A stretch of DNA of 64,000 bases from Nitrospirales bacterium (GTDB lineage: Bacteria > Nitrospirota > Nitrospiria > Nitrospirales > UBA8639): NCBI GenBank assembly GCA_031315865.1, contig JALDRJ010000002.1, positions 3,694,001-3,758,000 of the forward strand. Direction: 5' to 3'. Below the pieces are notes generated by a model. That model did no database searches. It saw only the letters and a program-made list of their open reading frames with translations, and was not told the DNA's origin. Shown piece by piece: positions 13,770 to 30,501 of the stretch. The translations under genes were made by a program, and so were the position numbers. Position 1 is the stretch's first letter; every line of letters begins with the position of its first letter.

Positions 13770-16058
13770 TCAGGAATGCGATTCGGCCAGAACCGGCTGG
13801 GCCACTTCGTCTGGACTCGCTTCCAAATCCGCATCCTCGGTGTAATCCTGCCGCACTTCCGTCAATTCAATTTCGACGGTTTCCCCCGGGGCCAGTCTCT
13901 TCAGATCCCATTCCGTAATCCACCCTTTGACGTATTCCCGCATTCTCGTGCTCGATAATCGTTCAATCGTCGGGACTTGAGGGGGATTCCATCCATAAGC
14001 CTGCGCATGGACGGACCAAATCTTCTGATAAATTTCCTCGATCCGTTTATCGTGGGGGCCCACGAGAGGAATACGTTCACATTCGATCAACTGCATTCCC
14101 TGTTCGGCTTGACGTGATAACACCAAATCAGCTTCTGAGCCCGTGTCCCGCAACTTTGCCGGCACCATTTCCCGATCACCTTTTTCATCCAAGATCGCAC
14201 TTTGAAAATCGTCAGTCAGCGCCAACACAGAGGCCAAACCTGATTTGTACCCGATATCAGCAAAGCTCGACGCCTCTAAACGTCCCATCCATCGGGCTAA
14301 TTCAGCATACGATTGCGCGCGCTGCTTGAAGGAGTAGCGTCCGATGATTTCGGCTTCGTCAATCAGCAAAATCCAGCCGGAATAGCCGGCAGCCACCATC
14401 AGACGGGAAACGAACTTCAAACGTTGCAGGGCCATTTCGGCCGAGGTCAATTTGTCAAAGCGGTACGTCATGCCCGAGTCGCAGGCTTTCACGTATCGCT
14501 TGATTTCCCCATCACTGAGCGGGTCGCCAGCCCAGAATCGAAGTATGCGATGACTCAGTTCAGGATCATTGATCATGCGTTCATACAAAAGAAGCGTTGC
14601 GGCAAACCTAGCGTCAATCTCGCCTCCCTGTCGGTTGACCCATTCGGAAAACTGTGCAAATCGCGGACTTTGAAATTGCAAGCCGCGCGTCACTTCCATG
14701 AGCGCTTCCCCACGTCTCTGAGGGATCACCGCCGACTCGATCGCAGCCCGAAACATCAAGGCGGGATTATACAGAGGAGTTTCCTTGCTGATGACGACCC
14801 GGCTCGTGACGAAGTTTTGCTCCAAGGCCATCTGTTGTAGTGATTCCAAGAGATGTGATTTCCCAGTCCCAAATCCTCCCTCCACGAGCATGCCCTTCGT
14901 GGTCCATCCCTTTTCCACACTCCCTTGAGCATCATGGAGTAACTGTTGAAATTTTGATTGGACTATGGGTTGAGGACACCCCAGGGTTTTGACCACTTCG
15001 GCATTTGGAACTCCCGATCGCAATGATTCGATCACTCGTTGCGCCTGAGCATTGCCCCCTTCTGACATGCGACGATACGAGCCCACCTCACCAGACGATG
15101 AAGACGCATTCGAAAGTCTGATCATCGGAGCAAGAGGATTCTGCCGGTACTTATCTCGCACATCGTCCAGTATGCGGAGTTTTAATGCTTCATACCGGTT
15201 CAGACCCAATCGTTGGTTCGTTAAAAATTCAAAGGGCGCGATGACCACCATCAATAAGCCTTCAATTTCATCCGTTCCATCGATAAATTGCCGCAACATC
15301 TCATAGGCGTCGAGGACCGCCGCAGGACTATAGGACAACCCCGCTCTCTCCTTCTTGACCGACCGAGACTGTACGAATGCGGAAATATCGAGAGAAACGA
15401 CAAGCCCTCGATCGCCGATTACACGAATCCAATGCGTGAGAGAGGCGAACAAGAAACGGGCATTGTTTCGTGAAACCTTTTGGAATATCAGGGCTTCTTT
15501 GAGCTTTGACAGGTACCGCAGCTCCCCGCATAACCAGGCTTTAATGGATGTCGCGAGTGTGGACGTCTCCCCTGGTGGCTCAAGCCGTGCCAGACAGAGC
15601 TGCATCATGGCGAGGCGAAATTCAAGACTCATGTGATAATCATGGAACAACGCCTGTTCCAGCCATCCGGTCAGATCACGTTTTAAATCGGCTTCTTCTC
15701 GACCATTGAGGGTCGCAAGAAAGGTCCAATGACAGTCACTGGGAGTTTCTGGAGTCTGACAGTGGTTCTGCGCGAGCAACCGTTTCAGGAACCGGTAGGC
15801 CAACGCGTCCCAATCGATTTGCCGGGCGATCTCCTGAAAGAGCAAATCGATCAATTGCACTTTCGTCGAACGGGCGTCAGCGTTCACCACGACATAGTCT
15901 TCGTGCTGGGCCATCACGCGGAGCTGAGCGGAAAACTGCGAGAGATCGGTGCCTTCAGTCCCTACTGCGAACTTCACGACCGATCCTCCATCCCGAACAT
16001 ACTGTTGGAGGTACTCTTTTTGAAGGATCGTTAACCATTCATGTGGTGACATTGCCAT
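13770..16058 (-). CDS. BrxD-like (DUF2791) tandem ATPase, paralog B
   Basis: A 762-residue paralog of the downstream gene, collinear along its whole length. The N-terminal half has GGSVVKFAVGTEGTDLSQF (P-loop lost) and GLVVSLDISAF. The C-terminal half has RVIESLRSGVPNAEVV, Walker A GGFGTGKSHLL (about 397), Walker B GWILLIDEAEI (about 566) and SSTRMREYVKGWITEWDLKRL near the end. AAGGTC precedes the ATG at 16058. The two proteins could form a hetero-oligomer with alternating active sites; that is inference. The family is linked to BREX, but the neighbourhood lacks BREX effectors, so a different role (nucleic acid remodelling, loader) remains open. Confidence 0.85.
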   Translation of the reverse strand: MAMSPHEWLTILQKEYLQQYVRDGGSVVKFAVGTEGTDLSQFSAQLRVMAQHEDYVVVNADARSTKVQLIDLLFQEIARQIDWDALAYRFLKRLLAQNHCQTPETPSDCHWTFLATLNGREEADLKRDLTGWLEQALFHDYHMSLEFRLAMMQLCLARLEPPGETSTLATSIKAWLCGELRYLSKLKEALIFQKVSRNNARFLFASLTHWIRVIGDRGLVVSLDISAFVQSRSVKKERAGLSYSPAAVLDAYEMLRQFIDGTDEIEGLLMVVIAPFEFLTNQRLGLNRYEALKLRILDDVRDKYRQNPLAPMIRLSNASSSSGEVGSYRRMSEGGNAQAQRVIESLRSGVPNAEVVKTLGCPQPIVQSKFQQLLHDAQGSVEKGWTTKGMLVEGGFGTGKSHLLESLQQMALEQNFVTSRVVISKETPLYNPALMFRAAIESAVIPQRRGEALMEVTRGLQFQSPRFAQFSEWVNRQGGEIDARFAATLLLYERMINDPELSHRILRFWAGDPLSDGEIKRYVKACDSGMTYRFDKLTSAEMALQRLKFVSRLMVAAGYSGWILLIDEAEIIGRYSFKQRAQSYAELARWMGRLEASSFADIGYKSGLASVLALTDDFQSAILDEKGDREMVPAKLRDTGSEADLVLSRQAEQGMQLIECERIPLVGPHDKRIEEIYQKIWSVHAQAYGWNPPQVPTIERLSSTRMREYVKGWITEWDLKRLAPGETVEIELTEVRQDYTEDADLEASPDEVAQPVLAESHS

Positions 16059-16160: not shown

Positions 16161-17036
16161 TTATCCTGTCTTCACGAACGAGAGACCATAGTAGGTCTTC
16201 TCTCTCCCTCCCTGGGCGATCACCGTCAGGGTTCGATTCGCATCCCGGACGCCGGTACTGGCATGAAAATTTGCCCGATGCCCTTTCTTGGTCACGACGG
16301 TCCCGCTCTTATCCAATAGATACACATCACGACCAAATTCCTGTCGTGTGTACTCCGTCGCTTGCCAGGGCAACAGGGTTAAAAGTTGATACAGTTCGAG
16401 AAGAGGGATGACCGTTCCCGTGCCGATCAAATGCTTCCCTCGTCCGGCGACTACGATCGAATAGGCGGAGAACAACATTTCCAGGAAGGTCTGTGTTTTC
16501 AACCGTGGCGGCTTGTTCTGGACCTCTTTTAATTTCTTGACTAAGACGGATGGGCGGAGGCGGCTCTCCTTTGTACGATCAATGGCGACGGCTCGCTCCT
16601 TATGAAGAATCTGCAGCAACACGGGATAGGAAAAGAGATATCCATCATGTTCATAGATATTCACGCCCATTTGCTGAGCCGCAGACAGTAATTCCTCTCG
16701 ATACCCTTTCCCCGATAAGTACCGTCCTTCATCGAAAAAATTCCAATTCTCTTGCGCCTTGCCAAAGTCACATCCAAGTGTCAGCGTCGCTTGCCTCGCT
16801 TCCTCCAACAACCGACGAAGTTTCACCAAATCTCCGACTTTGGCGGCATCCCGTAACTTTTTGTATGAGGTCGCGACGAGGCCGGCCGTTTTGACGAGCA
16901 TCGCGGATTGCTCTTCCATGTCCGCAAGAGCCTGTTCAAGATTGAGTTCCTTCTTCGGGACATCCGGAGTACAATGATGGGCAGGCAATTCGGCCACGCA
17001 ACTGGCAGATCCGACGCTGGATTGCTGTTCACTCAT
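16161..17036 (-). CDS. Unknown protein, first gene of the BrxD-like ATPase operon
   Basis: A 291-residue protein without signal peptide or recognised domain. The N-terminal 40 residues are low-complexity. Residues about 33-90 are probably helical (LEQALADMEEQSAMLVKTAG, LVKLRRLLEEARQATL). A globular part follows, with WNFFDEGRYLSGKGYREELL, GVNIYEHDGYLFSYPVLLQI and an Arg/Lys-rich KESRLRPSVLVKKLKEVQNKPP. It lies 102 bases upstream of ATPase paralog B on the same strand, so it is probably co-transcribed and may be an adaptor or substrate-binding partner of the ATPases. That role is inferred from position only. Confidence 0.7.
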   Translation of the reverse strand: MSEQQSSVGSASCVAELPAHHCTPDVPKKELNLEQALADMEEQSAMLVKTAGLVATSYKKLRDAAKVGDLVKLRRLLEEARQATLTLGCDFGKAQENWNFFDEGRYLSGKGYREELLSAAQQMGVNIYEHDGYLFSYPVLLQILHKERAVAIDRTKESRLRPSVLVKKLKEVQNKPPRLKTQTFLEMLFSAYSIVVAGRGKHLIGTGTVIPLLELYQLLTLLPWQATEYTRQEFGRDVYLLDKSGTVVTKKGHRANFHASTGVRDANRTLTVIAQGGREKTYYGLSFVKTG

Positions 17037-18305: not shown

Positions 18306-19811
18306 ATGTGGAACCTGATCAACAGACTAACAGCCTTATCTCTTATCGTACTTTTGATTGTACAAGCCGGGTGTGTCGTGACGCCGGAACGGTTAACCGA
18401 ATCTGATATCCAGGCTCGCATCACTCATGACTTGCAATATGTCACGAAAGATCAAGACCCCGTTACCGACCCCATCGACATTTTCGAAGCGATGGCTCGA
18501 GCGCTGGCCTACAACCTCGAGACGAAAGTGGAAGTCATGAAGACAATGCTCGCGCATCAACAACTCGACCTGTCTCACTATGACCTGCTCCCACAACTCG
18601 TCCTCAACAGTGGCTATGACGGCCGCAGTAACTACAGCGGAGCCACCAGCCGATCATTGTTAAGCGGACAAACCTCACTCGAACCGTCCACGTCGTCCCA
18701 GAAAAATGTTTTCACGACGGATTTAAGTCTCAGCTGGGATGTCCTCGATTTCGGCCTGTCCTACGTTCGCGCCAAACAGGCTGCGAATAATGTGCTGATC
18801 GCCGAAGAGGAACGGCGACGCGTGGCCAATCGGGTCATGCAACACGTCCGAACGACCTTCTGGCGAACAGTCAGTGCCAACCGCATGCTCGGACGGCTGG
18901 CCCTCCTCGAGGACTGGGTCACCAAGGCTTTGGACGAACTCGAGCAAGCTCAGCAACGTCGACTGGAACCCCCCCTGGCTTCCTTGCAATATCAACGAGA
19001 ATTGCTCTCGACGAAAAACGAAATTCAAAAGCTGTATCACGCGCTGTCGGTGTCTCGATTTGAACTGGCTGAACTCATGAACCTGACGCCGGGTCAGACC
19101 TACGAGCTGACGCTTGCATCACGTGAAGATCCCATTCCCACGCTCGCGCTGTCGGTGAAAGAACTGGAGCATCGCGCACTCGTACATCGGCCGGAACTTC
19201 GGACAATCGACTATCGAAAACGAATCAATGCTGAAGAAACCAAGGCCGCTCTCTTGGATATGTTACCGAACCTTAATCTTCAGTTCGGACCGAATTACAG
19301 CAGCAATAGTTTTCTGTTCAATAACCACTGGCTGTCCTACGGAGCCAAAATCAGCTGGAACCTGCTGAACGTGTTTCGAACTCCCAAACAATTCACGATC
19401 ATCGAGCTTCAGGATCAGATCCTGCACACTCAAAGTCTTGCCCTGACGATGACGGTCATGAGTCAGGTGCACGTCAGCTTGGCTCAACTCACAGCGGCCA
19501 AAACCGCCCTTCACTCAGCACGAGCCTACTTTGACACTCAAGAACATATCGAAGAACTCGTTCAGCATTCGTGGAACGCCAGACGGCAGGGTCAACGCAC
19601 GATCATTCGTGAACGACTAAACGGCATCCTCGCTGAGCTCCGTCACGAAGCCGCACGAGCGGAATATGAAACGGCCTACGCGAATCTCCTCGCGGCAATC
19701 GGGGAAGAACTCCTGCCAGAACGGATAGAGGGCCGGAAGATCTCCGAGATCGCCAATGCCTTACGGAATCAATGGGATGGCTTAAAAACATCCAATCAGG
19801 AAACGGCCTAG
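18306..19811 (+). CDS. TolC-family outer-membrane lipoprotein
   Basis: A 501-residue protein. The signal LIVLLIVQAGC ends in a lipobox-like AGC. The mature protein shows two long helical repeats with the OEP pattern: AMARALAYNLETKVEVMKTM, LSLSWDVLDFGLSYVRAKQAANN, then LVHRPELRTIDYRKRINAEETKAALLDMLPNLNLQ and ISWNLLNVF. TolC-type proteins form trimeric outer-membrane channels for type I secretion and efflux. It is the first gene of a plus-strand run with HlyD adaptors, an M50 protease and a giant surface protein, and is the likely outer-membrane exit for that substrate. Confidence 0.9.
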   Translation: MWNLINRLTALSLIVLLIVQAGCVVTPERLTESDIQARITHDLQYVTKDQDPVTDPIDIFEAMARALAYNLETKVEVMKTMLAHQQLDLSHYDLLPQLVLNSGYDGRSNYSGATSRSLLSGQTSLEPSTSSQKNVFTTDLSLSWDVLDFGLSYVRAKQAANNVLIAEEERRRVANRVMQHVRTTFWRTVSANRMLGRLALLEDWVTKALDELEQAQQRRLEPPLASLQYQRELLSTKNEIQKLYHALSVSRFELAELMNLTPGQTYELTLASREDPIPTLALSVKELEHRALVHRPELRTIDYRKRINAEETKAALLDMLPNLNLQFGPNYSSNSFLFNNHWLSYGAKISWNLLNVFRTPKQFTIIELQDQILHTQSLALTMTVMSQVHVSLAQLTAAKTALHSARAYFDTQEHIEELVQHSWNARRQGQRTIIRERLNGILAELRHEAARAEYETAYANLLAAIGEELLPERIEGRKISEIANALRNQWDGLKTSNQETA

Positions 19812-19825
19812 TCAAATTCAGCAAC

Positions 19826-20749
19826 ATGAAATCCATTATCCTACGAAGAGCGAGAACACTGGGGATGGCGACCGTGGCCATCTCATGTTTGCTCAGTCTC
19901 TCCGTCTCCGTACAAGCCAAAATCAAACCAAAATCATCACCGGCACGCGCTGAACTGAATAGTATTCGCGGCATCATCACGCCTGCAGCGGAAGCGGTAT
20001 TATCCAGTGAAATACAAGGACGCATTCAATATCTCCCGCTACGGGATGGGCAACGATTCAAGAAAAACCAGGTACTCGTCTCCTTTGAGTGCTCCAAACT
20101 CGAAGCGAATCTGGCCAGTGCCAAAGCCGAACACGAAGCCAACGTCAAAACATTGAAAAACGGGCAGCAACTATCCACGCTGCATGCGATCGGTGGACTG
20201 GAAATCGAGATCAGCCTCGCGGAGGTTAAAAAGTCTCAAGCTGCAGTGGATATTGCACAAACCGACGTGAACAACTGTGTGATCAGAGCTCCCTTCTCTG
20301 GGCGAGTCGTCAAAACGCTGGTCAATCAGTATGAGAGCGTCAATCCCTACGATCAGTTGTTGAGCATCCTGGATGATAGTCGGTATGAGATTGAACTGAT
20401 TCTCCCGTCAACCGCCTTACAATGGGTTGGAAAGGACAAGCCATTTGATTTTACCGTGGATGAGACCGGAAAGACTCACAAAGCCACAGTCGCCATACTA
20501 GGTGCGAGCATCGATCCGGTCAGCCAGACTTTCCGAATAACAGGACATTTCCTCGAAACGCCACAGGATATTCTCTCGGGAATGAGCGGCAGCGCACATT
20601 TCCCTGACCAACCAATCCCCACCACAGAATCCAATACCCAAGCCAAAGCCCAGACTAAAACCCTGTCCCAAACAAAGGCGCACAACGCCAAAAAGAACGT
20701 ATCGGGTCCGGCCGACTTGTCGCTCAAGCCCACGCGGAAACGACGATGA
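19826..20749 (+). CDS. HlyD/RND-type periplasmic adaptor
   Basis: A 307-residue protein. A signal peptide (about 1-31, RRARTLGMATVAISCLLSLSVSVQA) favours the ATG at 19826 over an upstream frame start at 19772 that overlaps the tolC-like gene. Residues about 45-85 (GIITPAAEAVLSSEIQGRIQYLPLRDGQRFKKNQVLVSF) form the first half of a biotinyl-lipoyl domain. A helical hairpin follows (AEHEANVKTL), then VNNCVIRAPFSGRVVKTLVNQYESV, and a beta-barrel with ILGASIDPVSQTFRITG. The tail is Gln/Lys/Thr-rich. The adaptor should bridge the inner-membrane components and the TolC-like channel. Confidence 0.9.
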   Translation: MKSIILRRARTLGMATVAISCLLSLSVSVQAKIKPKSSPARAELNSIRGIITPAAEAVLSSEIQGRIQYLPLRDGQRFKKNQVLVSFECSKLEANLASAKAEHEANVKTLKNGQQLSTLHAIGGLEIEISLAEVKKSQAAVDIAQTDVNNCVIRAPFSGRVVKTLVNQYESVNPYDQLLSILDDSRYEIELILPSTALQWVGKDKPFDFTVDETGKTHKATVAILGASIDPVSQTFRITGHFLETPQDILSGMSGSAHFPDQPIPTTESNTQAKAQTKTLSQTKAHNAKKNVSGPADLSLKPTRKRR

Positions 20750-20763
20750 CGACATAGGGTAGC

Positions 20764-22236
20764 ATGAGGAACGAAGAACATCGGCCGACGGCTCACTTAG
20801 GTACTACGACAGAGCTCCTTGAACCGACAGAAAACGCACCGCCTCTTTCCGCAAAAGCTGACACGGCGGCCCCACCGCCTACTTCAACATCAGGCCTCGC
20901 ATCTCTGGAATTCCAAGCCCTGTTCACGTTACTCCAGCTTGAGCCCCAGGCTCGCATGGCCCAGAGCATCAAAGAACTCCATTTCCTGGCGGTGAACGAA
21001 ACGCGGCGACTGCTTCCGTACCGACAGGCGTTCCTGTTCAAAGCCGGCGCCAACCTCAAAAGTCGCTGTCAGCTTGAAACCGCTTCCAGTGTGCCGGCCA
21101 TTCGGCGAGACGCGCCACTCACTCTGTGGCTGGAGCAGACGCTTCATGCCCTTCGCCAGAAAGAAGGTGTGCCAGAAAAACAACTATTTTCCGCGGATGA
21201 ATGTCCACCGGACCTTAAAAACGGATGGAAAGAATTTTCCTTTCCTCATGTCTTGTGGTGTCCATTCATCCTTCCCGACAAGACATTCCTAGGCGGCCTA
21301 TGGCTGGCCAAAGACACGCCCTGGCAAGACAGTGAGGCCACCATCGCCCAACGGCTGTGCGACACCTACGCTCACGCATGGGGAGCCATGGCCCGACGGA
21401 AGCGCATATCGCTCACACAGAGAACATCTCGAAAATGGCTATGGCTCGCCCTGTTCACCGGCCTGATTGCAATGGCCATCCCTGTCCGTCTGTCAACATT
21501 GGCCCCAGTCGAAATCGTCGCTCGGGAACCGGCGATCGTCAGCGCGCCCATGGATGGAATGATCGCGGAAATCCTCGTCCCTCCAAATACGCGAGTGGGG
21601 AAGGGACAAGTCATTTTTCAGTATGACGACACCGATTTACGCAGTCAGTATGAAGTCTCGGAACACAATCTCACCAAAGCCATCGCGGAATACCGCAAGG
21701 TCACACAACAGGCATTCGCAGCCGCGGAGAGCGATGCGCAAGTTCCGTTACTCAGAGCCGAAGTGCAGTTGCAGGAGACCGAACGTGATTACGCCTTGGA
21801 ACGTCTGGAACACGTCGCCGTCAAAGCCACCCAAACTGGGTTGCTTCTATACTCCGATCAATCGGACTGGGTAGGCCGTCCAATCAAGACCGGAGAGCGG
21901 ATCATGGAAATCGCCGACCCTGAAAAGATCGAATTAAAGATCGACGTCCCGGTCAACGACGCGATTGCGCTGCAGGATCGCGCAGCCATCGAAATATTCT
22001 TAGACGCAAAGCCACTGGACACCTACCCAGCGACGCTTATCCGCGCCAGCTATCAAGCCGTTGAGCTTCCCGAACACATCCTCGCATACCGCGTCATCGC
22101 GAAATTTCACCATAGGCCCTCCGACGTGCGGATCGGTTGGCGGGGCACGGCAAAAATCTACGGTGACCAAACCACCGTCTTCTTCCTGGTCTTCCGGCGA
22201 CCACTCTCAGCGATCAGGCAATACCTTGGCTGGTGA
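20764..22236 (+). CDS. GAF-domain HlyD-family membrane fusion protein
   Basis: A 490-residue protein. A Pro/Thr-rich N-terminus precedes a GAF-like cytoplasmic domain (about 55-215; ELHFLAVNETRRLLPYRQAFLF, HVLWCPFILPDKTFLGGLWLA). One transmembrane helix (about 222-242, WLWLALFTGLIAMAIPV) leads to a periplasmic adaptor with APMDGMIAEILVPPNTRVGKGQVIFQYDD, a helical hairpin, and AVKATQTGLLLYSD. A GAF sensor on a membrane fusion protein is unusual and suggests that export responds to a cytoplasmic ligand. It overlaps the next gene by one base (TGATG), indicating translational coupling with the M50 protease fusion. Confidence 0.88.
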   Translation: MRNEEHRPTAHLGTTTELLEPTENAPPLSAKADTAAPPPTSTSGLASLEFQALFTLLQLEPQARMAQSIKELHFLAVNETRRLLPYRQAFLFKAGANLKSRCQLETASSVPAIRRDAPLTLWLEQTLHALRQKEGVPEKQLFSADECPPDLKNGWKEFSFPHVLWCPFILPDKTFLGGLWLAKDTPWQDSEATIAQRLCDTYAHAWGAMARRKRISLTQRTSRKWLWLALFTGLIAMAIPVRLSTLAPVEIVAREPAIVSAPMDGMIAEILVPPNTRVGKGQVIFQYDDTDLRSQYEVSEHNLTKAIAEYRKVTQQAFAAAESDAQVPLLRAEVQLQETERDYALERLEHVAVKATQTGLLLYSDQSDWVGRPIKTGERIMEIADPEKIELKIDVPVNDAIALQDRAAIEIFLDAKPLDTYPATLIRASYQAVELPEHILAYRVIAKFHHRPSDVRIGWRGTAKIYGDQTTVFFLVFRRPLSAIRQYLGW

Positions 22237-24362
22237 TGAGTCAGGTCAACACCAGGCACTCCCCTCTCCCTCCGTTACGCGACGACTTGCACGTGATCAA
22301 GAGCATGCCGACGTTGCAGGGAGAACCAACCTGGACCATCGTTGACCCCGTTCGCAATGCCTATCTTCAGATCGGATACGGGGCCTATCAATTATTGACG
22401 CGATGGAATGCAGGAACGGTCGAGCAGCTCGTGGACAGGATCTCCTTGGAAACGTCCTGCACCATCACCAAGAAAGACGTCGAAGAATTCCTTAAATTTC
22501 TATACGCGAATCACTTGACGCAAGCCCCTATGACAGGGAGCAGTGCAACCTTTGCGGCACAGGCCGAGGCTAGGCAACAATCCTGGCTTATAGCGCTGCT
22601 CCATCAGTATCTCTTCTTCAAAATCCCGGTAATCCAACCGGATCGTTTACTGAAAATCACACTCCCCTACGTGGCTCCTCTGATGACGCCAGTCACGGCA
22701 GCCTTTGTCGCCGTTCTCGGAATTCTTGGCGTCTTCCTCGTCAGCCGTCAATGGGACGGCTTTATTCATTCCTTCCTTCATCTGTTCTCGTTAGAAGGAG
22801 TAATCGCCTTCGGGATCGCACTCTGCGGGGTCAAAGTCCTGCATGAATGCGCGCATGCGTTCACCGCCACCAAGTATGGATGCCGGGTGCACACGATGGG
22901 AATCGCATTCCTCGTCATGTTCCCTCTCTTGTATACGGACACGACAGACGCTTGGCGCCTCGCGTCCCGCCGAGAGCGGATCCTCATCGCGGCCTCGGGG
23001 ATGATCGCGGAAGTCGCATTGGCGATGTGCGCGACATTCCTCTGGAACTTTCTGCCTGACGGAATTTTCCGCAGCATTGTCTTCGTGATCGCCACGACAA
23101 GCTGGGTCATGTCGCTCACGATTAACCTGAATCCCCTGTTACGATTCGATGGATACTATGTCCTTTCGGATTTTCTCGGCATTCCCAACCTTCAACAGCG
23201 GGCGTTCGCATTCGGTCGCTGGAAACTCCGGGATGTGCTCTTCGGCCTGAACGTACCCCCTCCAGAACACACGACACCACTGCTGCGCAAGGGGCTTATC
23301 GCCTACGCCTGGAGTACATGGCTGTTCAGATTTGTTCTCCTGACGGGCATCGCCGTCCTGGTCTACCACTTTTTCTTCAAGCTTCTCGGCGTCATCTTAT
23401 TCACGGTCGAAATAGTCTGGTTCATCGTGATGCCCGTTTGCCGCGAAATCAAAGAATGGTGGAAATTCAGAGATCATATCGTGAAAACCCCTCGGGCATG
23501 GATCTCAGGAACCATTCTGGCACTCATAGTCTTGACGGCCTGCATGCCCTGGCATACGCGTGTAACCATTCCAGCTATCCTTCAAGCCGAAGACCACACC
23601 GTGATTTTCTCCCCCGCAGCTGCGCAACTGCTCGAAAGCAAGATTGACAACGGGCAGCACGTTGAACAGGGAGAAATCCTGATCCGGTTAACCTCTCCGT
23701 CGATCGAGCATGATCTCCGGCAGGCTCATGTCCGCGTGAATGCCCTGAAACGTCAGATACAGACAATCACCAGCGACCCGGACCTGTTGGCCAATACCCA
23801 CGTCCTCATCGAAACACTCGGCACCGAACTCTCGACGCTTCGCGGACTGCAGGAAATGAAAGACAATCTCCTGTTGAAAGCCCCGTTTTCCGGGGTCATC
23901 GTCGACGTTCAACAGTCTTTGCATCCCAAACGTTGGATCAATGAACAACTTCCCCTCACGCGAATCTTCAGACCGCAGACCCAAAAACTTGTGGCACTCA
24001 CATCCCAGACAGAACTGTCAAGATTACAAATCGGACAACACGCGACGTTCATTCCGGATGATCTCATGCAACCGGCGATTCAAGCCCGCATTTCAGATAT
24101 CCGCCATGTCGATGAGGAAACGCTCGTCATTCCGTACCTGGCCTCCGTCTTTGGGGGAAATATCCCCGTGCGAGAAAATGGAAAAGGAGAACTCATTCCG
24201 AAATCCGGGGTGTATCGAGTCACCCTCACGCCGCTCGAGCATCTGCCTCCAAGCAAGCAGGTAATCAAAGGCCTTATTCACGTGCAGGGCGCTCCACAGA
24301 GTCTGGCCATCCAATTCCGAGATTTTGTGGTTTCAGTCCTGGTACGGGAAATGGGATTTTAG
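22236..24362 (+). CDS. PqqD-like / M50 site-2 protease / HlyD-like fusion protein
   Basis: A 708-residue protein from the ATG at 22236 (a GTG at 22233 is also possible). Residues about 12-95 resemble a PqqD-type winged helix (WTIVDPVRNAYLQIGYGAYQ, TVEQLVDRIS), the fold that reads leader peptides in RiPP systems. Several transmembrane helices carry the zinc protease motif HECAH (203-207) and the second site NLNPLLRFDG. After further helices comes a periplasmic HlyD-like part (VIFSPAAAQLLESKIDNGQHVEQGEILIRL, LLKAPFSGVIVDVQ). M50 enzymes cleave within the membrane. Its place between two adaptors and a giant surface protein suggests that it recognises, cuts or threads that substrate. Confidence 0.9.
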   Translation: MSQVNTRHSPLPPLRDDLHVIKSMPTLQGEPTWTIVDPVRNAYLQIGYGAYQLLTRWNAGTVEQLVDRISLETSCTITKKDVEEFLKFLYANHLTQAPMTGSSATFAAQAEARQQSWLIALLHQYLFFKIPVIQPDRLLKITLPYVAPLMTPVTAAFVAVLGILGVFLVSRQWDGFIHSFLHLFSLEGVIAFGIALCGVKVLHECAHAFTATKYGCRVHTMGIAFLVMFPLLYTDTTDAWRLASRRERILIAASGMIAEVALAMCATFLWNFLPDGIFRSIVFVIATTSWVMSLTINLNPLLRFDGYYVLSDFLGIPNLQQRAFAFGRWKLRDVLFGLNVPPPEHTTPLLRKGLIAYAWSTWLFRFVLLTGIAVLVYHFFFKLLGVILFTVEIVWFIVMPVCREIKEWWKFRDHIVKTPRAWISGTILALIVLTACMPWHTRVTIPAILQAEDHTVIFSPAAAQLLESKIDNGQHVEQGEILIRLTSPSIEHDLRQAHVRVNALKRQIQTITSDPDLLANTHVLIETLGTELSTLRGLQEMKDNLLLKAPFSGVIVDVQQSLHPKRWINEQLPLTRIFRPQTQKLVALTSQTELSRLQIGQHATFIPDDLMQPAIQARISDIRHVDEETLVIPYLASVFGGNIPVRENGKGELIPKSGVYRVTLTPLEHLPPSKQVIKGLIHVQGAPQSLAIQFRDFVVSVLVREMGF

Positions 24363-24684
24363 TCTACCGCTCTAGCACACCCACCACACCGTTCGTTTTC
24401 TTTTCTGAGAACTGTTCCGTCACCGCCACCAACTTCCCTGAAACACAACAAACATGAAGCAACCAACATGGCCTCACAGAGCGTTGGTTCATAGGAAAAA
24501 TGGGAAGTCAGCCATAGGACTTTTTCTGATATTCATCAATAGATCGCAAAAAGTGGATATTTTGAGCGTCGTGGCCGATGTAGAGACTAGGGAAAATACA
24601 GCTAGAGGCCTGAATCCACACTATTTCCATGAGGCGGAGGCCTGGCATAGCCAGATAGCTCGTTTGTCTATTTTTGGATCACGC
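24363..24684. other. Region upstream of the giant surface protein
   Basis: About 320 bases. The reading frame of the surface protein is open from 24454, but the translated 77 residues lack signal-like or conserved features. The stretch may be a leader region with a promoter. Confidence 0.4.
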
Positions 24685-27600
24685 ATGAAATCATCACATT
24701 CCTCAACCTCCAGTCCAAATCGCTTCATGCAAGCATTGCTGGCCTTGGAACCACGTCTCCTGTTTGATGGCGCAGCACTCGTCACTGCCGACACGATCGT
24801 CAACGACCAAGACGTTCAGGACCAGGCCGAGGCGTCTGAGCCCAAAGAATCCGGAGAGCATGAGGGAGGACATCACCCGGCATCTGATCCGCTACTCGAG
24901 TCCTTAATCGCCTTACCAGCCAGGACCGATCGACAAGAAATCGTCTTCATCGATACCCGCGTGAATGATTACCAAACGCTCATCAAAAATATTGATCCGA
25001 ATGCCGAAATCGTGCTTTTGGATCCGACACTCGATGGGATCTGGCAAATCACGGACGCACTACGCGATCGAGAGGGCGTCGATGCACTCCATATCGTGTC
25101 GCATGGTGAACAGGCTCACCTACAAGTAGGAACCAGTTCCTTAACCATCGACTCCATGAATGGGAACTATCACGAGGCCCTCGCGACCATCGGCCAGGCT
25201 CTATCGGAGGAGGCCGATTTACTCATCTATGGCTGTAGTTTTGGCGAAGGTGAAGTAGGTCAGGCCGCCGCTGTCAGATTAGCCGAACTGACCGGAGCGG
25301 ATATCGCTGCCTCTAACGACCTCACCGGAAACGCAGAACTCGGCGGTGACTGGGACCTGGAAATTTCAACCGGCACGATTGAAACGACCGCAGTCATCGG
25401 TGAAGCCAGTCAAGCCGTATGGGAAGGCCTCCTTGCCACCTATACCGTGACGAACACGAATGATTCAGGAGCTGGTTCGTTCCGGCAAGCTATTCTGGAT
25501 GCCAATGCCAATGTGGGGACTGACACCATCGGGTTCAATATTGCAGGCGCTGGTCCACATACCATCACGCCCACCTCGGTACTGCCCAACATCACCGACA
25601 CCGTCATCATTGACGGAACGACAGAGCCGGACTTTGTGAGCACACCAGTCATCGAATTGGATGGCAGTAGCGCAGGAGCCGTCGCTGGTCTGACCTTCGC
25701 CTCGGGCAGCGATGGCAGCACGATCCAAGGATTGGTGATTAACCAATTTGAGGGGGCTGGGCTTGATCTCTCCAGCGACAATAATACGGTCCAAGGAAAC
25801 TACATCGGCCTAGACGTGACCGGCACGGCGGATTTAGGAAATGGCTTTGCCGGCATCCTCATCCAGAATGCCGCCACTGGCAACACCATCGGGGGAACAG
25901 ACGCCGCCGCACGTAACGTGATCTCAGGGAACACCAATGGCATCGTCATCCGGCATACCGGCACCTCGTCCAACACCATAGCCGGGAACTATATTGGCAC
26001 AGATTTCAACGGTGACGCGGATGTAGGGAATACCTTCGACGGCGTCTTAATCCAAAATGGGGCCACGGGCAACACTATCGGAGGCACCACAGCGGCACAT
26101 CGCAATATCCTGTCTGGAAACGATCGGGCAGGAATTCAGATCACTGGTGAAACGACGGACGGCCACACCGTACAAAACAACTATGTCGGTGTGGCAGCGG
26201 ATGGCACGACAGCTCTCGGAAATGCGAACTCTGGCATCTATATCGGCTTCGGCAGTGACGATAACATCATCGGCGGCATTGGGATGGGCAATGTAATCGG
26301 CGCCAGCGGGTTTGTCGGGCTGGAGCTAGACGGGGCAAGCTCCGGGCATATCATTCAAGGCAACTATATCGGGACTGATGCCACTGGCACGGTGAATCTC
26401 GGCAACCAGGAAAATGGCGTGCTGTTTGAAAACGGCGCATCCTCCAATCTCCTGGGCGGCGAAAACGCCGGGGAAAGCAATACCATCGCATTCAATGGCC
26501 AGGGTGGCAGCTTTACGGCTGGCATCGACGTATCGGATACCACTTCCATCGGGAATGCCTTACTAGGCAATGTCCTCTACTCAAATGTCGGGATAGGCAT
26601 TGATCTGAATAGTGGACCGCTTGGAGTCACACCCAATGACGCCGATGACGGGGACACTGGTGGCAATAATTTACAGAATTATCCGGTGCTCACGACCGTG
26701 AGTCTTAAAACCGCGAGTCAGGTTGTCATTGCGGGAACGTTCAATACGGACCTCTTGAGCCAAAATTACCGGATTGAGTTTTTTGCCAACACGACGGCTG
26801 ATGGAAGCGGCCATGGCGAAGCCGAACGGTATCTTGGGTATACGACCGTGACAACCGATGGAGCAGGGAACGCCTCCTTCAACATCACGCTGTCGGCCTC
26901 TGTCGTCGCTGGTGAATCGGTGACGGCCACGGCTACCGTGGACCTTGGCGGCGGAAGCTATGGTGACACGTCGGAATTGGCGCTCAACATGACCGCAACG
27001 AACAATGCCCCCGTGTTGACCCCGGCCAGCCCCACCCTCACATCCATTACGGAGGACGATACCAATAACAGCGGCGATTTGATTTCGGCCATCGTTACGA
27101 CTGATATTACTGACGCCGACAGCGGGGCCGTCGAAGGCATCGCTATTACCAGCGTGAATGCCAGTAACGGCACCTGGCAATACAACACCGGCTCCGGCTG
27201 GACTGACGTCGGCACGGTCAGCAATGCCTCTGCGTTGTTGTTGCGCAGCACCGACTCCTTGCGCTTCGTACCCGATGGCCAAAACGCCGATGCCGCTTCG
27301 GTGACCTATCGCGCCTGGGATCAAACCAGCGGCGCCGCCGGCAGTAAAGTCGATGTCTCCACCAACGGCGGCACCACCGCCTATAGCAGTGCCACCGATA
27401 CCGCCTCGCTCACCGTCACCGCCGTCAATGATGCCCCCGTGTTGACCCCGGCCAGCCCCACCCTCACATCCATTACGGAGGACGATACCAATAACAGCGG
27501 CGATTTGATTTCGGCCATCGTTACGACTGATATTACTGACGCCGACAGCGGGGCCGTCGAAGGCATCGCTATTACCAGCGTGAATGCCAGTAACGGCACC

Positions 27601-30501
27601 TGGCAATACAACACCGGCTCCGGCTGGACTGACGTCGGCACGGTCAGCAATGCCTCTGCGTTGTTGTTGCGCAGCACCGACTCCTTGCGCTTCGTACCCG
27701 ATGGCCAAAACGCCGATGCCGCTTCGGTGACCTATCGCGCCTGGGATCAAACCAGCGGCGCCGCCGGCAGTAAAGTCGATGTCTCCACCAACGGCGGCAC
27801 CACCGCCTATAGCAGTGCCACCGATACCGCCTCGCTCACCGTCACCGCCGTCAATGATGCCCCCGTGTTGACCCCGGCCAGCCCCACCCTCACATCCATT
27901 ACGGAGGACGATACCAATAACAGCGGCGATTTGATTTCGGCCATCGTTACGACTGATATTACTGACGCCGACAGCGGGGCCGTCGAAGGCATCGCTATTA
28001 CCAGCGTGAATGCCAGTAACGGCACCTGGCAATACAACACCGGCTCCGGCTGGACTGACGTCGGCACGGTCAGCAATGCCTCTGCGTTGTTGTTGCGCAG
28101 CACCGACTCCTTGCGCTTCGTACCCGATGGCCAAAACGCCGATGCCGCTTCGGTGACCTATCGCGCCTGGGATCAAACCAGCGGCGCCGCCGGCAGTAAA
28201 GTCGATGTCTCCACCAACGGCGGCACCACCGCCTATAGCAGTGCCACCGATACCGCCTCGCTCACCGTCACCGCCGTCAATGATGCCCCCGTGTTGACCC
28301 CGGCCAGCCCCACCCTCACATCCATTACGGAGGACGATACCAATAACAGCGGCGATTTGATTTCGGCCATCGTTACGACTGATATTACTGACGCCGACAG
28401 CGGGGCCGTCGAAGGCATCGCTATTACCAGCGTGAATGCCAGTAACGGCACCTGGCAATACAACACCGGCTCCGGCTGGACTGACGTCGGCACGGTCAGC
28501 AATGCCTCTGCGTTGTTGTTGCGCAGCACCGACTCCTTGCGCTTCGTACCCGATGGCCAAAACGCCGATGCCGCTTCGGTGACCTATCGCGCCTGGGATC
28601 AAACCAGCGGCGCCGCCGGCAGTAAAGTCGATGTCTCCACCAACGGCGGCACCACCGCCTATAGCAGTGCCACCGATACCGCCTCGCTCACCGTCACCGC
28701 CGTCAATGATGCCCCCGTGTTGACCCCGGCCAGCCCCACCCTCACATCCATTACGGAGGACGATACCAATAACAGCGGCGATTTGATTTCGGCCATCGTT
28801 ACGACTGATATTACTGACGCCGACAGCGGGGCCGTCGAAGGCATCGCTATTACCAGCGTGAATGCCAGTAACGGCACCTGGCAATACAACACCGGCTCCG
28901 GCTGGACTGACGTCGGCACGGTCAGCAATGCCTCTGCGTTGTTGTTGCGCAGCACCGACTCCTTGCGCTTCGTACCCGATGGCCAAAACGCCGATGCCGC
29001 TTCGGTGACCTATCGCGCCTGGGATCAAACCAGCGGCGCCGCCGGCAGTAAAGTCGATGTCTCCACCAACGGCGGCACCACCGCCTATAGCAGTGCCACC
29101 GATACCGCCTCGCTCACCGTCACCGCCGTCAATGATGCCCCAACGATTACCAGTGATGGCGGTGGAACCACCGCGAATGTCAATATGGTTGAAGGGAACA
29201 CAGCCGTCACGACCGTCACGGCCAGCGATGTTGATGTCCCAGTCGACGCACTGACCTACAGCTTGGTCGGTGGAGCGGACCAAGGCCTGTTTAACATCGA
29301 CGCCAATAGTGGAGCATTGGCCTTCAACACTGCGCCGGCCTTTGCGATTCCAGCAGATGTGGACATGAACAACATCTACGTCGTTCAAGTCCAGGTCAGT
29401 GACGGAAACGGCGGCACCAACATTCAAACGATCAACGCCACCGTGACCGCGGCGAATACGTCTCCAACAATCACGAGTAACGGAGGCGGGCCGACAGCCG
29501 GCATAAATATAATCGAGGGACTCACAGGCATTACGACCGTGACCGCTACAGACAATGATACAGGAGATATTCTGACCTATGGACTGGTGGGGGGGGCCGA
29601 CGCCAGTCGTTTCAGCATCAATAGCAGTACCGGAGTCCTGACATTCAACACGGCGCCTGATTTCGAAAATCCTGTTGATGCCAATCGGGATAATGTGTAC
29701 GAAGTCCAGATTCAAGTCAGCGATGGAAACGGCGGATTTGATTCTCAAACCTTGAATGTGACCGTAACCAATATCGTGGAGGCCCCCGCTCCTATTCTCG
29801 ACCCATTCCCTTCCCCTGAACCGTCAACGGATCCCACCCCGGAAACAGATTCTGCCTCCGTCTCTGAAGAACGTACGGAAGACACCGACGAGGCAACGAC
29901 TGCCCCTGCCGGAGACCAGAATCCGGGAACACCAAATCCTGTCGCACCAGCCTTCCTGGAAGAGCGGGATCAAACGAACGATCGGTTCAATCGTCACTCG
30001 GCTTCGCATTCTCACCCTGCTCACCCCCCTCAACAGCAGTTAGATGTAATGCATGTTTTGAGACCTACCGACTTTCTTCCCACGAACATATGGAATTCAG
30101 ACAACATGTCGTCCGCCCCAATGCGATCACTGGATATTGGAGGAATCGCCCCTACTGTTCCGATGGATCTCCATCTCCAGCTCGACGCTCTGGCTCAACA
30201 GTTACAAAGCACGCTCCACCATACAAATGACCAATCCGACCTCGCATCCGGTCTGGCCAGCGGCGCTGGCATGACACTCTCGGCCGGGTATATCGCCTGG
30301 TTTTTACGAGGCTCTTCCTTTTTGACGAGTCTCTTGGCCTCTGTCCCCGCTTGGGGAAACTTCGACCCGCTGCCTGTTTTGTCGGGCGGCTATACCGCGC
30401 GCAAGATTCACGAACAGCAAAACCAATCTCAAGCCGACAAAGAAAACCAAGAATTTCAAGGCATTGGTGAGATTTTTCAAGACGTAAAAAAAGACCCGTA
30501 A
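24685..30501 (+). CDS. Giant LEPR-XLL / DUF4347 surface protein with cadherin-like repeats
   Basis: The protein is 1,938 residues from the ATG at 24685; the frame is open from 24454. The ATG at 24685 is chosen because it places LALEPRLLFDGAAL (LEPR-XLL motif) at 19-32. Next come DUF4347 (about 84-235, VDALHIVSHGEQ, DLLIYGCSFGEG), a right-handed beta-helix region with GNTIGG and RNVISGN turns (about 255-630), and five identical 142-residue Ig/cadherin-type repeats. Two further cadherin-like repeats (FSINSSTGVLTFNTAPDFE) and a Pro/Glu/Thr-rich linker follow. Near the C-terminus is a hydrophobic segment, AGYIAWFLRG to WGNFDPLPVL (about 1867-1898). Such proteins are large adhesins. There is no classical signal peptide, so export probably uses the adjacent cassette. 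Confidence 0.92.
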   Translation: MKSSHSSTSSPNRFMQALLALEPRLLFDGAALVTADTIVNDQDVQDQAEASEPKESGEHEGGHHPASDPLLESLIALPARTDRQEIVFIDTRVNDYQTLIKNIDPNAEIVLLDPTLDGIWQITDALRDREGVDALHIVSHGEQAHLQVGTSSLTIDSMNGNYHEALATIGQALSEEADLLIYGCSFGEGEVGQAAAVRLAELTGADIAASNDLTGNAELGGDWDLEISTGTIETTAVIGEASQAVWEGLLATYTVTNTNDSGAGSFRQAILDANANVGTDTIGFNIAGAGPHTITPTSVLPNITDTVIIDGTTEPDFVSTPVIELDGSSAGAVAGLTFASGSDGSTIQGLVINQFEGAGLDLSSDNNTVQGNYIGLDVTGTADLGNGFAGILIQNAATGNTIGGTDAAARNVISGNTNGIVIRHTGTSSNTIAGNYIGTDFNGDADVGNTFDGVLIQNGATGNTIGGTTAAHRNILSGNDRAGIQITGETTDGHTVQNNYVGVAADGTTALGNANSGIYIGFGSDDNIIGGIGMGNVIGASGFVGLELDGASSGHIIQGNYIGTDATGTVNLGNQENGVLFENGASSNLLGGENAGESNTIAFNGQGGSFTAGIDVSDTTSIGNALLGNVLYSNVGIGIDLNSGPLGVTPNDADDGDTGGNNLQNYPVLTTVSLKTASQVVIAGTFNTDLLSQNYRIEFFANTTADGSGHGEAERYLGYTTVTTDGAGNASFNITLSASVVAGESVTATATVDLGGGSYGDTSELALNMTATNNAPVLTPASPTLTSITEDDTNNSGDLISAIVTTDITDADSGAVEGIAITSVNASNGTWQYNTGSGWTDVGTVSNASALLLRSTDSLRFVPDGQNADAASVTYRAWDQTSGAAGSKVDVSTNGGTTAYSSATDTASLTVTAVNDAPVLTPASPTLTSITEDDTNNSGDLISAIVTTDITDADSGAVEGIAITSVNASNGTWQYNTGSGWTDVGTVSNASALLLRSTDSLRFVPDGQNADAASVTYRAWDQTSGAAGSKVDVSTNGGTTAYSSATDTASLTVTAVNDAPVLTPASPTLTSITEDDTNNSGDLISAIVTTDITDADSGAVEGIAITSVNASNGTWQYNTGSGWTDVGTVSNASALLLRSTDSLRFVPDGQNADAASVTYRAWDQTSGAAGSKVDVSTNGGTTAYSSATDTASLTVTAVNDAPVLTPASPTLTSITEDDTNNSGDLISAIVTTDITDADSGAVEGIAITSVNASNGTWQYNTGSGWTDVGTVSNASALLLRSTDSLRFVPDGQNADAASVTYRAWDQTSGAAGSKVDVSTNGGTTAYSSATDTASLTVTAVNDAPVLTPASPTLTSITEDDTNNSGDLISAIVTTDITDADSGAVEGIAITSVNASNGTWQYNTGSGWTDVGTVSNASALLLRSTDSLRFVPDGQNADAASVTYRAWDQTSGAAGSKVDVSTNGGTTAYSSATDTASLTVTAVNDAPTITSDGGGTTANVNMVEGNTAVTTVTASDVDVPVDALTYSLVGGADQGLFNIDANSGALAFNTAPAFAIPADVDMNNIYVVQVQVSDGNGGTNIQTINATVTAANTSPTITSNGGGPTAGINIIEGLTGITTVTATDNDTGDILTYGLVGGADASRFSINSSTGVLTFNTAPDFENPVDANRDNVYEVQIQVSDGNGGFDSQTLNVTVTNIVEAPAPILDPFPSPEPSTDPTPETDSASVSEERTEDTDEATTAPAGDQNPGTPNPVAPAFLEERDQTNDRFNRHSASHSHPAHPPQQQLDVMHVLRPTDFLPTNIWNSDNMSSAPMRSLDIGGIAPTVPMDLHLQLDALAQQLQSTLHHTNDQSDLASGLASGAGMTLSAGYIAWFLRGSSFLTSLLASVPAWGNFDPLPVLSGGYTARKIHEQQNQSQADKENQEFQGIGEIFQDVKKDP
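27007..29136 (+). repeat. Five tandem copies of a 426-bp coding repeat
   Basis: Copies begin at 27007, 27433, 27859, 28285 and 28711, each 426 bp (142 codons, APVLTPASPTL to TVTAVND). By eye the copies are identical at nucleotide level, including synonymous positions. This points to very recent amplification or gene conversion. The true copy number may vary between cells, and an assembly could have collapsed or expanded it. Confidence 0.97.

Follow-up and report, generated by a model that had tools for sequence, protein, structure and literature searches.

What would a domain resembling those that read the leaders of small peptide precursors be doing on a membrane protease encoded next to a giant surface protein? 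The question is raised by a 64,000-nucleotide stretch of a Nitrospirales bacterium (lineage UBA8639; GenBank assembly GCA_031315865.1, contig JALDRJ010000002.1, positions 3,694,001 to 3,758,000 of the forward strand), referred to here as the window. One of its genes encodes a fusion of a RiPP recognition element (RRE; RiPPs are ribosomally synthesized and post-translationally modified peptides), an M50 site-2 protease and a HlyD-type adaptor domain. The answer that we favor, with a probability of roughly 0.6 and on the strength of sequence comparison and modeling, is that the RRE binds the N-terminal LEPR-XLL leader of the neighboring giant protein on behalf of the fused protease and of export by way of adaptors and TolC. 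The elements on which this answer turns are the following (coordinates of the window).

22233..24362, + strand: RRE - M50 site-2 protease - HlyD fusion, 709 residues
22254..22562, + strand: RRE/PqqD-like domain, fusion residues 8-110 (model and PDB matches)
22842..22856, + strand: HExxH zinc motif of the fusion, H204-E205-x-x-H208 (invariant in 66/66 aligned sequences)
23124..23153, + strand: second site-2 protease motif, N298-L-N-P-L-L-R-F-D306-G307 (66-sequence alignment)
23538..24308, + strand: C-terminal periplasmic adaptor domain, fusion residues 436-692 (MacA, EmrA and MexA chains, Z about 14-17)
24454..30501, + strand: giant LEPR-XLL/DUF4347/cadherin-like surface protein, the presumed substrate, 2015 residues (PF14252, E 1.9e-53; Cadherin; LEPR-8K)
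24736..24798, + strand: LEPR-XLL segment (contains ALLALEPRLLFDGAAL), the proposed leader, of dialect A as defined below (NF012209, 19.9 bits, cut-off 17)

A sequence-only reading of this DNA had noticed the likeness of the fusion's N-terminus to PqqD and other RRE domains (the peptides that it quoted map to fusion residues 34-55 and 62-71), and the likeness is borne out by AlphaFold2, Foldseek and VIA-align. Residues 8-110, modeled from an alignment of the window domain with 65 relatives from a genome collection, give a mean confidence (pLDDT) of 88.5 and a predicted template-modeling score (pTM) of 0.78. Three predicted strands (near residues 20-24, 33-38 and 43-47) are followed by three helices (near 49-56, 63-73 and 80-92), which is the order, in a winged-helix fold, that section 6 of an RRE survey requires (PMC12710340). 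The top six solved chains returned by Foldseek are all RRE proteins, three of which were solved with a lasso leader in place (the best has E 0.013 and probability 1.00; none reaches E 0.001), and the first seven rows of VIA-align are likewise all RRE proteins: lasso-peptide B1 with leader has Z 9.6 (root-mean-square deviation 2.9, 82 residues aligned), TbiB1 with leader 9.4 and 9.2, and PqqD itself (5sxy) 8.2 (2.6, 84 aligned). As far as prediction goes, the fold of the N-terminal domain is settled as that of an RRE, a type of domain that receives leader peptides in the cleft of strand 3 and helix 3.

Placing the window domain in the PqqD family by sequence alone failed. Pfam PqqD (PF05402) is the sole family match to the N-terminal part when the whole fusion is searched, below threshold at E 0.14; the domain alone scores 16.8 bits against a curated cut-off of 23.4, and no protein of the window's genome matches PF05402 at E 0.001. 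A profile of the domain and its closer relatives found no sequence match among solved chains, and a search of a viral fold library found none either. The relatives are more informative. They form two RRE-protease classes, class A, to which the window belongs, and class B, a second group in the same phylum that is about 25% identical. PqqD is matched by 8 of 66 class A relatives (best E 0.0039; every other family is matched by one member each) and, at E 0.05, by 20 of 21 class B relatives (best 9.6e-8; the 21 are 18 Nitrospirota and 3 plasmid sequences). In hhalign comparisons, the class B domain aligns with seven PF05402 proteins at E 1e-7 and with the class A domain at E 8e-6. The RRE is present in both classes, and residues R9 and D31 of the model are invariant in 66/66 class A sequences.

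The M50 part of the fusion scores 30.9 bits with PF02163 (cut-off 27.2); H204-E-x-x-H208, N298, R304, D306 and G307 are invariant in all 66 aligned sequences and P301 is found in at least 90% of them. The C-terminal ~250 residues form a membrane-fusion-protein domain; the fold search with the full-length fusion returned adaptor and biotinyl-domain matches only and is used here for the adaptor domain alone. Seven membrane helices are predicted from model helices, hydropathy and charge distribution, with the N-terminus in and the C-terminus out, a topology that would place the RRE and both zinc motifs on the cytosolic side and the adaptor domain in the periplasm. From these features and from the cassette and the pairing of classes and leaders described below, we infer the following sequence of events. 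At the cytosolic side of the inner membrane, the RRE would bind the LEPR-XLL segment as a leader and present it to the protease part of the fusion, with zinc motifs predicted to face that side as well; the protease would probably cut at or after the LEPR-XLL motif, and the substrate would then pass along the fusion's HlyD domain, the other two adaptors and TolC.

Why should the LEPR-XLL segment be the ligand? It is favored because the type of leader follows the class of RRE, because the leader motif resembles that of daptides, and because C-termini diverge among substrates that share one RRE class. The segment itself lies close to where the sequence-only reading had put it (24739-24780), and the N-terminal motif of the giant protein exceeds the cut-off of its family model. 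LEPR-XLL leaders come in two dialects: dialect A, LE(P/S/Q)R-x-(M/L)-F-D-(A/G)-A, and dialect B, (L/M)E-x-(L/M)E-(P/A)-R-x-L-L-(S/A)-(A/G)-(D/T). The window's dialect A leader is ALLALEPRLLFDGAAL; FMLESLEPRLLLSATP is an example from class B, whose leaders read LExLEPR, LESMEPR or LDPMEPR. At every locus with a visible motif, in Nitrospirota and Pseudomonadota alike, class A goes with dialect A and class B with dialect B (LEQR variants and N-termini far inside long open reading frames (ORFs) are included in the counts). Dialect A stands at 38 of 41 Nitrospirota class A loci (the window plus 40 of 45 further places) and dialect B at none; dialect B stands at 10 of 18 Nitrospirota class B loci and dialect A at none, several of the eight motif-less loci ending at contig borders. 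Class A loci outside the Nitrospirota show dialect A in 13 of 63 cases and dialect B in none. On plasmids, five of six class A systems have dialect A and none has B (the sixth, from Magnetospirillum, has a short ORF without visible motif), and six of seven class B systems have dialect B and none has A (in the seventh, the record opens shortly ahead of the fusion gene, and no substrate is visible); in Alisedimentitalea the annotated start falls shortly after the dialect B motif. Neither pattern finds a match in 2.45 Mb of reversed DNA or in 7.35 Mb of shuffled DNA (three shuffles).

The sequence-only reading had left the choice of ligand between this segment and the C-terminus of the surface protein. 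Its first candidate has gained, being shared across phyla, following class in its dialect and being daptide-like; its second has lost, since substrates of class A do not have the C-terminal segment in common. The window's own C-terminus is the following.

30274..30498, + strand: giant-protein C-terminal tail, a moderately hydrophobic stretch and FDPLPVL, of a type seen here in Nitrospirota class A substrates only

That the RRE or the protease recognizes this end, with the protease cutting the helix for release or sorting, would suit the established ability of site-2 proteases to cleave within membranes, and in Nitrospirota class A it would suit the substrates too: of 31 complete ones, 15 end in a DPLPV-type C-terminus and 21 have a hydrophobic 19-mer of at least 1.45. 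Elsewhere, under the same RRE class, 0/41 are of the DPLPV type, 1/41 has such a 19-mer and 33/41 carry a different motif, F-x-x-Q (found in 1/31 in Nitrospirota; the pattern is broad and was written after inspection), while the window's own stretch peaks at just 1.16. (The set excludes ORFs that are shorter than 400 residues, lack adhesin-like composition, are truncated at the 3' end or have masked ends.) Since C-termini differ under one RRE class, the C-terminus is unlikely to be the general RRE ligand, and we regard recognition at that end as distinctly improbable. The ligand is probably the N-terminal LEPR-XLL leader, and leader cleavage probably the outcome, as judged from these comparisons.

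The closest named family to the fusion is the daptide protease (NF041824), which the window protein matches at E 9e-44 with 150.1 bits and class B with 172.2 bits, both against a cut-off of 300; the class B match (E 1.8e-50) extends over profile positions 2-361 of 379, so that the RRE part is included. The daptide protease MpaP/DapP also has an N-terminal RRE followed by a site-2 protease, in the same order, and adjoins substrates with an N-terminal L-E-x-(L/M)-E-(A/P) motif. No HlyD domain is named for MpaP, and its substrates are peptides of ~50 residues with tailoring-enzyme and ATP-binding cassette (ABC) transporter genes nearby; here the neighbor is a protein of 2015 residues, with TolC and adaptors. 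The daptide leader motif is given as ELExMEAP (PMC10036551), and cleavage is reported to occur after ELExxxxx (a later preprint, PMC12338566). In three Streptomyces clusters, leaders encoded beside mpaP end mostly in QELE(A/V/T)(L/M)EAP, and a matrix built from 14 distinct class B motifs peaks at exactly the QELE...EAP site in six of seven distinct daptide leaders. The daptide leaders being related to one another, this resemblance is supportive, not proof.

Is the giant protein then the substrate, or merely a neighbor? The closest named relatives of the fusion are RiPP proteases, and a small RiPP-like precursor encoded elsewhere might on that account be its real substrate. The genomic record speaks for the giant gene. 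Among 295 genomes of the phylum, the fusion is found in 51 (E 1e-20) and an LEPR-8K match in 52 (E 0.1), over cut-off in 41 of those; counting matches over cut-off, 35 genomes have both, 16 the fusion alone, 6 LEPR alone and 238 neither (odds ratio 87; the p-value overstates the association because the genomes are related). Of the 61 LEPR places over cut-off, 42 have a fusion gene no more than 20 kb away. LEPR places with a class A fusion at such a distance number 29, and 24 of them are at most 2 kb from it. The same cassette with its giant neighbor is found on plasmids of Azospirillum, Variovorax, Burkholderia, Kosakonia and E. coli, and no small precursor is annotated at the plasmid loci (short ORFs were not searched systematically there). 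A small precursor elsewhere is therefore highly unlikely to be what the fusion serves.

The closest named relative of the window's fusion is from a Nitrospirales metagenome-assembled genome (MAG; 63% identity). In the genome collection (80 loci kept of 582 confirmed) the fusion also occurs in Pectobacterium, Pseudomonas, Serratia, Methylomonas and Pelagibacteraceae MAGs, among others. An E. coli plasmid (NZ_CP081687.1, 4830-24581; locus L099) carries a complete class A cassette with an Ig-like giant protein of 4459 residues (N-terminus FALESRQLFDGAA); fusion genes near-identical to its own occur in 24 of 5426 complete E. coli genomes, at 25 places of which 21 are on plasmids. In Variovorax paradoxus (L003, CP063167.1, 19413-68132) a 48.7-kb gene, for about 16,240 residues, adjoins the cassette, and the opposite flank holds type II secretion genes. 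Small proteins annotated as 'tail fiber' adjoin class A cassettes in Kosakonia (L098, 11074-13181), Azospirillum (L002, 1-1853) and Burkholderia (L198, 1-138); the Kosakonia protein has a phage tail collar domain (PF07484) and an apparent signal peptide. A Calothrix plasmid (L202, 7416-8834) encodes a site-2 protease without HlyD domain, its N-terminal stretch RRE-like by eye.

In 46 class A systems below 90% identity (32 Nitrospirota, 14 others), motif identity correlates with all regions of the fusion (0.74-0.83), most highly with the RRE. After correction for the other four regions the partial correlation of RRE and motif is 0.334, a value reached in 0 of 2000 permutations; it is 0.09 for the linker, 0.13 for the protease core, -0.06 for the membrane part and 0.03 for the adaptor. 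Among 31 sliding windows, the RRE ranks first overall and first in the 14 systems from outside the Nitrospirota. These figures are a hint, though not proof, that motif identity follows both the RRE and the core of the protease, which recognition together with cleavage would lead one to expect.

A number of observations weigh against RRE-LEPR-XLL recognition. Among the 32 Nitrospirota systems the RRE ranks third of the 31 windows and the HExxH region first, and after rank transformation the RRE falls to twelfth; because it fails there, we take the covariation as suggestive only. The dialect patterns were written after the Nitrospirota sequences had been inspected, with some proteobacterial N-termini also in view, and the test in other phyla is only partly out of sample; 50 of the 63 class A loci outside the Nitrospirota have no visible motif, in most cases because the flank ends inside the giant gene. 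The daptide resemblance is modest: composition-preserving shuffles reach the score in 142-421 of 20000 cases for six leaders, and in 3776 of 20000 for the seventh, whose best place is elsewhere. In hhalign the class A domain aligns weakly with seven Nitrospirota PF05402 proteins (probability 19) and with the MpaP RREs (probability 25, E 7.5e-4). Two draft Nitrospirota genomes, G195 (L203) and G232 (L205), carry class-B-type LEPR proteins with no fusion found; a class B search for the fusion in five genomes returned none, and a later profile search had two positive genomes as control. G195 and G232 are the only likely orphans among the six LEPR-only genomes, the other four being discounted (in G166, G275 and G077 the matches fall in ORFs of 15-40 residues, and G223 has no giant LEPR gene). 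Finally, substrate and cassette are linked and co-inherited, and the dialect pairing could therefore arise without contact.

This last point is the core of a different account, in which the RRE no longer reads a peptide and is structural or regulatory, the pairing reflects joint inheritance, and some other part, such as the N-terminal domain of the second adaptor (about 230 residues, of no assigned family), reads LEPR-XLL. The strong correlation of every fusion region with motif identity and the failure of rank-based windows to single out the RRE would fit this account as well; retention of the RRE in both classes, with R9 and D31 invariant throughout class A, and the description of the daptide relative as RRE-dependent do not. 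We think it unlikely, and return to RRE-guided leader recognition and the machinery that surrounds it.

18306..19811, + strand: TolC-type outer membrane efflux protein (PF02321, E 2.3e-33)
19772..20749, + strand: periplasmic adaptor, resistance-nodulation-division (RND)-type membrane fusion protein (TIGR01730, 103.8 bits, cut-off 94.9)
20764..22236, + strand: second HlyD-type adaptor with an N-terminal domain of ~230 residues of no assigned family (PF13437, E 2.7e-9; residues 1-233 without Pfam match at E 0.1)
27005..29141, + strand: five identical 426-base repeats in the passenger region of the giant gene (5.0 copies, 100% matches)

The four cassette genes, for TolC, the RND-type adaptor, the second adaptor and the fusion, overlap or sit close together, and the giant ORF starts 91 bases past the fusion gene; its real start codon may be an internal ATG at 24685. 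The identity of the repeats suggests recent expansion or gene conversion. The window also encodes a BrxC/BrxD-type BREX ATP-binding protein (13770-16058, - strand; PF10923, E 2.1e-34) and, upstream of that gene, one at 16161-17036 to which no identity is assigned.

Type 1 secretion of giant adhesins and the C39-peptidase transporters also combine a giant surface protein, a HlyD-type adaptor and TolC, with a peptidase coupled to export. The window cassette differs in having no visible ABC ATPase, a proposed signal that is N-terminal, and a membrane metalloprotease. The ABC component that type 1 systems encode with adaptor and TolC is not part of it: no ABC transporter gene is found among ten scanned ORFs of the window or beside the cassette in annotated relatives, although an unlinked copy is possible. 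PqqD and lasso-peptide B1 share the predicted fold (Z 8.2-9.6) but are stand-alone and serve small peptide precursors, whereas the window domain is fused and below the Pfam cut-off. The epipeptide metalloproteases YydH/LiaK (NF058609), which act in RiPP maturation, are HExxH membrane proteases like the fusion (E 2.5e-7), with a match limited to fusion residues 189-319 and far below cut-off.

No ATPase is seen in the class A cassette. Ten genomes were tested for SecA: in five class B genomes a second SecA match lies within about 350 bases of the fusion match, five class A-only genomes have one SecA over cut-off, and three of the ten have a weak match below it. Most class B cassettes (L094, L095, L190-L193 and Nitrospirota L033-L050) include a SecA-like ATPase, and those of Pseudomonadota also a small DUF3467 protein (PF11950). 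The SecA neighbor is annotated in Alisedimentitalea, was found by Pfam in Pontibrevibacter and is not annotated at the Thalassospira class B locus. The SecA-like ATPase and the DUF3467 protein are possibly a dedicated translocation motor and a chaperone.

The fusion of an RRE to a site-2 protease is already known from daptide MpaP, and RiPP leader removal by a different site-2 protease is described in a 2026 preprint on TMcins (PMC13252029). Three features are new here: a HlyD adaptor within the fusion, a cassette with TolC, and a presumed substrate that is a giant LEPR-XLL protein. In architecture the fusion is a variation on MpaP, equipped with an adaptor domain and probably put to a second use on giant surface proteins. 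The RRE survey describes RRE fusions and thirteen recognition motifs, and its main text contains neither 'M50' nor 'HlyD' (PMC12710340). The literature searched holds no description of a cassette of this type; LEPR-XLL is mentioned there in passing by two papers, once in each, with no function assigned, and the available portions of PMC6963963, PMC12153261 and PMC13274458 have no bearing on the cassette.

Tentatively, and at slightly less than even odds, LEPR-XLL may be the leader by which giant surface proteins enter a widespread export route whose ABC transporter is replaced by a fusion of RRE-guided site-2 protease and HlyD adaptor; the route would have grown out of RiPP-type leader recognition and would exist in two dialect classes, one with a dedicated SecA. 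If the RRE does read LEPR-XLL, the role of RREs extends from small peptide precursors to proteins of 2,000-16,000 residues, and the two dialects lend themselves to a specificity swap. A large number of giant surface proteins, of Nitrospira, Azospirillum, Pseudomonas, Pectobacterium and the plasmid-borne E. coli loci, would then gain both an export signal and a testable receptor.

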